Source: Pseudomonadota bacterium
GTDB taxonomy: Bacteria; Pseudomonadota; Gammaproteobacteria; Acidiferrobacterales; Acidiferrobacteraceae
Assembly (NCBI GenBank): GCA_021794275.1
Contig: JAJYRD010000054.1
Location: 1-38,143, forward strand
Direction: 5' to 3'
Length of the DNA: 38,143 nucleotides
The notes beneath the pieces were generated by a model that saw nothing but the letters and a program-made list of their open reading frames with translations, did no database searches and was not told where the DNA came from. The position numbers were made by a program, and so were the translations under genes. Of the stretch, positions 1,095 to 2,201 are shown one piece after another. Within the stretch, counting starts at the first letter, position 1. The number at the start of each line of letters is the position of its first letter.

Positions 1095-1449
1095 TGGTGG
1101 TGGAGACGGCGGGAATCGAACCCGCGTCCGCAAATCCTCGGCCAGTCAGTTCTACATGCTTAGTCTGTCTATTAAATCGCCCACCGCCCTCCGACAGACA
1201 GGATGGCCATGGGTTGAGCCCGCTTAGGTTTAATAACGCGCTAACAGGCACAGCGCGTCACGATCCTGCGTATATGACCGTTTCATCCCAGCCCACAGGA
1301 AGAACCGGGGAAACGGTTAGCGGGGATTAAGCCGCTAAGGCGTAGTTGTCGTCGTTGGCAACTATAGTTTTGCAGTTGGATTTACGAGGAACCCTGCACC
1401 TCGGCATGCCCCGAAGGCGTCGCAATCCACGTCGAAGCCGATCGTCCCC
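1095..1449 (-). ncRNA. ssrA: tmRNA (10Sa RNA)
   Basis: This is the transfer-messenger RNA of trans-translation. It enters stalled ribosomes with SmpB, encodes a degradation tag and releases the ribosome. On the minus strand the 5' end GGGGACG (1449-1443) pairs over 7 bp with CGTCTCC near the 3' end, forming the acceptor stem. A T arm with GGGTTCGATTCCC and an encoded CCA (1097-1095) complete the tRNA-like domain. The tag frame at 1359-1327 reads ANDDNYALAA followed by TAA, giving the usual YALAA protease signal. Length is 355 nt, normal for a one-piece tmRNA. smpB lies just upstream on the same strand. A hairpin terminator follows. The 3' end borders degenerate mobile DNA, in keeping with ssrA being a common integration site. 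Confidence 0.97.
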
Positions 1450-1460
1450 AAGGACCGCAC

Positions 1461-1490
1461 AGCATGCCATGACCGGGAGGGTGCTGGCAA
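1461..1490 (-). promoter_or_regulatory. Candidate sigma70 promoter of ssrA
   Basis: On the minus strand TTGCCA (1490-1485) and CATGCT (1466-1461) are separated by 18 bp. A TG two bases before the -10 gives an extended -10 pattern. The tmRNA 5' end lies 11 bp downstream of the -10. The -10 itself is weak. A MITE-like element ends only 15 bp upstream of the -35. Confidence 0.4.
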
Positions 1491-1505
1491 GTTGTTGGCC
1501 TGGGC

Positions 1506-1687
1506 GGCAGCAATTCTCAATGTGAAGCTGTAAGGCCTCGGAGCTATGGTGGGAGAACCAGAAACGCCCGGTGACGGCATCGGGACAAGGGTGTTTGAGG
1601 GCGCCCATACCGGACGTTGGCGCTCATTAGCACACCCCAAGCCACCGGATACTCATTGGCGCCATTGCCACATTGAGAATTGCTGCC
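1506..1687. mobile_element. 182-bp MITE-like element with terminal inverted repeats
   Basis: The sequence GGCAGCAATTCTCAATGTG at 1506-1524 is repeated as its exact reverse complement at 1669-1687, giving perfect 19-bp terminal inverted repeats. The element is flanked directly by TGGGC at 1501-1505 and TGGGC at 1688-1692, a 5-bp direct repeat that looks like a target-site duplication. The 144 bp between the repeats carry no convincing gene. This is the structure of a miniature inverted-repeat transposable element, presumably mobilised by a transposase encoded elsewhere. I cannot name the parent IS family. It lies between smpB and the ssrA promoter. Confidence 0.75.
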
Positions 1688-1730
1688 TGGGCGTGCGTGC
1701 GCTGGCTCTTTGGGTGGGCCACGATAGCGA

Positions 1731-2201
1731 TTAGTGCTGCTTGATGGCGCGCTCCTGTTCGCGGGCGGATTCGCGCTCCTTTACGGCCGCACGTTTGTCG
1801 TGCTGTTTTTTGCCCTTCACGAGAGCGATCTCGACTTTGGCGCGCCCGAACTTCCAATATAGGGAGAGTGGCACGAGTGTGAAGCCGCGTCGTTCGACGG
1901 CCCCTATGAGGCGGCTGATTTCAAGTCTGTGCAGGAGCAGCTTGCGGGTTCGCGTGGGGTCGGCCTTCACGTGCGTCGAGGTCGTCTTGAGCGGTGAGAA
2001 ATGCGCCCCGAACAGGAAGATCTCGCCCTTCTGGACGATCACGTAGCTTTCCTTCAGCTGGGCGCGCCCGTCCCGCAGGCTTTTGGCCTCCCACCCCTGC
2101 AATACGAGCCCAGCCTCAAAGCGCTGCTCGATGAAGTAGTCGTGCCAAGCCTTCTTATTCTGAGCGATGATGCGCGGTTCGGTTTCCTTAGAGCGGCCCA
2201 T
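1731..2201 (-). CDS. smpB: SsrA-binding protein SmpB
   Basis: SmpB binds the tRNA-like domain of tmRNA and delivers it to stalled ribosomes. The 156-residue product has the normal family length. Recognisable segments are [29 protein letters not shown] near the N-terminus (given here in two halves of the beta-barrel), the ESYV and LFGAHFSPL strands, RTRKLLLH, and the basic tail GKKQHDKR that follows the tmRNA along the mRNA channel. The start is ATG at 2201. Its RNA partner ssrA is the next gene on the same strand, with a MITE-like element between them. The start region faces the divergent SNF transporter gene. Confidence 0.97.

Follow-up and report, generated by a model that had tools for sequence, protein, structure and literature searches.

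We found that a 178-bp inverted-repeat element, lying between smpB and ssrA (the gene for transfer-messenger RNA, tmRNA) in a 38,143-nucleotide stretch of DNA from a Pseudomonadota bacterium (hereafter the window), is a genuine but ordinary insertion: a miniature inverted-repeat transposable element (MITE) of a known kind. The window corresponds to one contig, C88, in a draft genome (G000; 2.68 Mb, 89 contigs, 92.7% complete) whose host may, as a guess, be an acidophile close to Acidiferrobacter, and the comparison set comprises 13 relatives from the same genus, in eight of which the smpB-ssrA gap is readable. An earlier interpretation made from the window alone (the sequence-only reading) had called the element MITE-like and proposed a search for further copies: the genome holds eight, and longer elements sharing these ends occur in relatives.

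Anatomy and copies of the element

The element consists of the following parts.

1508..1685, unstranded: MITE, 178 bp, no recognised gene (from copies in its own genome and a Pfam search)
1508..1524, plus strand: left terminal inverted repeat (TIR), 17 bp, CAGCAATTCTCAATGTG (from comparison with seven other copies)
1669..1685, minus strand: right TIR, 17 bp, CACATTGAGAATTGCTG, perfect complement of the left (from the same comparison)
1499..1507, unstranded: left copy of the target-site duplication, CCTGGGCGG (8/9 match to the right copy)
1686..1694, unstranded: right copy of the target-site duplication, CCTGGGCGT (8/9 match to the left copy)

The sequence-only reading described perfect TIRs of 19 bp. 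The inverted repeats are there, but they pair at 17/17 bp and the borders lie at 1508 and 1685: the outermost GG (1506-1507) and CC (1686-1687) are where the two copies of the target-site duplication meet the element. The 5-bp duplication it proposed (TGGGC at 1501-1505 and 1688-1692) is likewise ruled out by the 9-bp duplications of the other copies, and gives way to one of 9 bp that matches at 8/9. The window contains five perfect 15-bp inverted repeats within 260 bp, the number expected from one 19-bp repeat, as against none in 30 mononucleotide shuffles. The claim that the enclosed stretch carries no gene holds: four listed frames of at least 60 amino acids overlap the element, every one of them extending beyond it, and a Pfam search of the four gave no match over the cut-off (one weak match, E 0.016, falls below it).

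The eight copies in the genome are spread over seven contigs. The seven others are 176 bp long, mutually identical, and 97.2% identical to the window copy, which has three substitutions and an insertion of 2 bp relative to them. Six of the eight are simple copies, all of them flanked by a duplication that matches at 8/9 or 9/9. A search for the ends allowing up to three mismatches gave 24 matches and added four elements that share these ends but measure 154-155 bp (L077, L078, L079, and L080), whose duplications match at 9/9, 3/9, 8/9, and 9/9, respectively. There is also a lone MITE-like end in this genome (L052, C47:11097-11115), with two mismatches and no partner within three mismatches.

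Across the genus we read 23 simple elements, defined by both ends at no more than four mismatches: 10 in the genome of the window, seven in G005, four in G003, and one each in G002 and G010. This count covers fetched loci only and is not a census; the pair on contig C65 described below is counted separately, and seven loci at which both ends were not obtained are left out (L019, L025, L030, L265, L266, L270, and L271). An 8/9 or 9/9 duplication flanks 19 of the 23, the exceptions being C65:15758 (3/9), L065 (2/9), L069 (7/9), and L257 (1/9). G005 (L061-L071) yields 36 matches to the transposase, of which many are partial, and we read seven MITEs of 154-236 bp in it, a pattern that suggests expansion and partial decay of the family there.

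Longer relatives and a probable composite unit

The sequence-only reading also proposed a search for a full insertion sequence (IS) with matching ends, and such elements exist in relatives, though not in the assembly of the window. Longer elements that combine a transposase gene with the same ends and 9-bp duplications occur in G005 and G009; others, in G001 and G006, have both ends but no duplication. The genus transposase (P0001) has a predicted Tn5-like fold over most of the protein (solved folds 4dm0 and 1mus), and D144, D233, and E357, invariant in 22 aligned sequences, form a candidate catalytic triad. Tn5 makes a target duplication of 9 bp. The likeness to the Tn5/IS50 transposase thus comprises the predicted fold and the length of the duplication; sequence identity is only ~12%, and the long elements of this genus, unlike Tn5/IS50, also carry a downstream DruA-domain gene. 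A sequence-profile search for a solved-structure relative of the transposase returned a single chance match (E 0.73). A partial likeness to ISAs1-like elements is also seen: the Pfam domain DDE_Tnp_1_assoc, which we take to be a mark of ISAs1, matches eight of the 22 aligned homologues (best 3.1e-6), whereas P0001 itself has no match at 0.01.

In the long element L072:15-2439 the DruA-domain gene (PF14236, 4.3e-43) follows the transposase gene. Such a gene lies downstream at five of 79 loci with related transposases, 64 of which have at least 1.2 kb of downstream sequence. A literature search on DruA, DUF4338, and insertion sequences gave no title on DruA inside insertion sequences among the matches listed, and the terms "ISNCY" and "ISAs1" do not occur in the text of a study of Acidiferrobacter thiooxydans insertion sequences (PMC8889020).

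On contig C65 (L076) two copies that are identical in sequence but inverted relative to each other (574-749 and 1456-1631) enclose genes for a Gp49/HigB-like toxin (PF05973, 3.7e-24) and a helix-turn-helix antitoxin-like protein (PF01381, 4.5e-12). The two copies have no duplications of their own (1/9 and 2/9), but CCGGGTAAC stands on both outer sides of the pair at 9/9. The 1,058-bp unit (L076:574-1631) probably moved as one composite, since identical outer 9-bp sequences would not result from an inversion between two separate insertions. The same toxin/antitoxin-like gene pair occurs in G005 (92% identity over 692 bp), with no MITE ends around it at up to five mismatches in the 3.7-kb locus.

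A segment flanked by two MITE copies is the subject of PMC3934969. The closest described parallel to the C65 unit is TIME-COMP (PMC4133298; see also PMC13367494), in which two miniature elements can bracket a segment and move it as a composite transposon, as the C65 pair apparently did. TIMEs themselves derive from Tn3 and have ends of 38 bp and duplications of 5-6 bp (PMC4133298); the family of the window has 17-bp ends, 9-bp duplications, and a parent that is Tn5-like by predicted fold. The family also resembles other prokaryotic MITEs such as MITEAba12 of Acinetobacter, which PMC6382973 describes as short and non-autonomous, with a proposed autonomous parent, in several host genomes and near or in important genes. 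MITEAba12 differs in ends, length, and host, and a recent movement into hns is recorded for it there; the element of the window is known from sequence only.

The smpB-ssrA gap and the ssrA promoter

Both neighbouring genes lie on the minus strand, placed as the sequence-only reading described, and 45 bp separate the smpB stop codon from the element.

1098..1449, minus strand: ssrA (tmRNA), tag ANDDNYALAA, intact by model (ARAGORN; RF00023, 237.4 bits)
1461..1466, minus strand: candidate ssrA -10 box CATGCT (3/6), spacer 18, the weakest -10 of nine genomes
1485..1490, minus strand: candidate ssrA -35 box TTGCCA (5/6); TTGCNN counterparts with spacer 17 in seven of eight relatives
1731..2201, minus strand: smpB, 156 amino acids (open reading frame)

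The distance from the candidate -35 box to the element, which lies upstream of it, is 17 bp and not 15 bp as first proposed. The sequence-only reading went on to suggest that the insertion had displaced an UP element or activator region. The proximal copy of the target motif remains in place after the insertion, and the motif is therefore not displaced. In the 20 bp upstream of the -35 box, AT content ranges from 15 to 55% across nine genomes, with no consistent AT-rich block. A further suggestion, that the element alters or supplies tmRNA transcription signals, finds no backing in our scans, which detected no promoter, terminator, or integration host factor (IHF) site contributed by the element. 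No promoter or terminator was called in 1400-1800, a weak negative since this strict scan also misses the candidate ssrA promoter; no IHF-like match was found inside the element by a scan that may miss weak sites; and the outward TTGAGA of the TIR has no usable -10 (best 3/6).

The readable gaps measure 92-295 bp in six relatives, 1,293 bp in G002, and 3,151 bp in G001. The G001 gap (L255) holds a different element of 3,065 bp with an 8-bp duplication (8/8), beginning 15 bp beyond the -35 edge, and the G002 gap (L256) a segment that has both ISAs1-like and DruA-like portions. Insertions upstream of ssrA are therefore accepted to within ~15 bp of the candidate -35 box, which speaks against any requirement for a distal activating site in the gap. 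A MITE of a different subfamily adjoins smpB in G003 (L257). We rejected it as an orthologue of the window element: it is 153 bp long, with 91.6% identity to a G010 copy and 67% identity to the element of the window, and its 1/9 match amounts to no duplication; no tmRNA was found at its locus, nor over the cut-off in the whole 85%-complete G003 assembly. A decayed MITE suspected by eye in the longer G005 gap was dropped, the blastn match being only 10 bases.

A single CTGGGCG, the motif of the target duplication, occurs in gap bases 31-90 of three of the eight relatives (G002, G012, and G013); G002 has a second, more distant one, and the other five gaps have none. As many were found in one of 20,000 mononucleotide shuffles, although the motif was picked after the sequences had been viewed. 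An empty site in these relatives is suggested, not proven. Further strains of the same species with an empty site should carry one CCTGGGCG copy.

Alternative explanations and their meaning

We consider it likely that the element is a MITE that was pasted in trans with a 9-bp staggered cut and is tolerated, nearly neutrally, beside the ssrA promoter. It would consist of a short core between the two ends of an IS whose transposase is Tn5-like; a longer relative would have provided the enzyme that excised it from another site and inserted it at this one, the landing site being the permissive smpB-ssrA gap just beyond the -35 box. The insertion would be tolerated because it leaves both genes, the core promoter, and the adjoining 17 bp upstream undisturbed. 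Several observations weigh against this account. In the assembly (92.7% complete) we found no transposase of the matching type, only a DruA-like frame (37% identity), so that the local mobiliser is hypothetical. The window copy is older or of another lineage, judging from its three substitutions, its 2-bp insertion, and the one mismatch in its duplication. The joined flanks, aligned to the gaps of the relatives (for G001 and G002, to the first 120 bp only), matched none of the eight significantly: shuffles scoring as high numbered, out of 500, 208 for G013, 378 for G012, 160 for G002, 222 for G004, 306 for G009, 380 for G010, 312 for G005, and 151 for G001. The motif lies 9 bases from the -35 edge in G012, 5 in G002, and 27 in G013, compared with 9 in the window; its recurrence is the one hint of a conserved upstream site, and CTGGGCG could be a real site of this kind, now duplicated and followed by the element. 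Lastly, the -10 box scores 4-5/6 in all eight relatives but 3/6 in the window.

These last observations bear on an explanation that we think unlikely, namely that the insertion alters ssrA transcription, either by separating or duplicating an upstream activating site (perhaps CTGGGCG) or by supplying a promoter or protein site that offsets the poor -10. The proximity of the element to the -35 box is in keeping with this, MITEs elsewhere bear promoters or IHF sites (PMC10969869), and TIME1 has weak promoter activity according to PMC4133298. The recurrence of the target motif in relatives, upstream of their ssrA genes, shifts the balance slightly from the near-neutral MITE towards this explanation. 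However, the scans of the element and its surroundings, the variable AT content upstream of the -35 box, the five gaps that lack CTGGGCG, and the large G001 insertion at nearly the same position all count against it. A role at the RNA level, with the element as the 3′ tail of smpB and its long hairpin stabilising smpB mRNA or lowering read-through into ssrA, is very improbable: the element does start close to the smpB stop codon, and the folds of both strands are more stable than those of dinucleotide shuffles (z -3.4 and -3.9), but such folding is common to any long inverted repeat, no U-tract terminator was called, and the transcript is hypothetical. The chances of a fortuitous inverted repeat or an assembly artefact are practically negligible. 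Identical repeats can be mis-joined in a draft of this kind, but the eight copies have differing flanks, the simple ones carry their own duplications, and the smpB-ssrA order is kept in eight relatives; a chance repeat is ruled out by the genome copies together with the shuffles.

A broader conjecture, which we put forward only tentatively, is that the MITE family, driven by a DruA-carrying Tn5-like IS, captures and moves host genes such as the toxin-antitoxin-like operon of the C65 unit, and that this and other elements repeatedly land immediately upstream of the ssrA -35 box, where the resident element may adjust the supply of tmRNA. Literature searches gave no paper joining ssrA, smpB, and "miniature inverted-repeat", and nothing on the smpB-ssrA locus among the matches listed. 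What is new here is the MITE family with its longer parent within the same genus; were the tmRNA level to change, the insertion would provide a natural example of ribosome rescue tuned by a mobile element.
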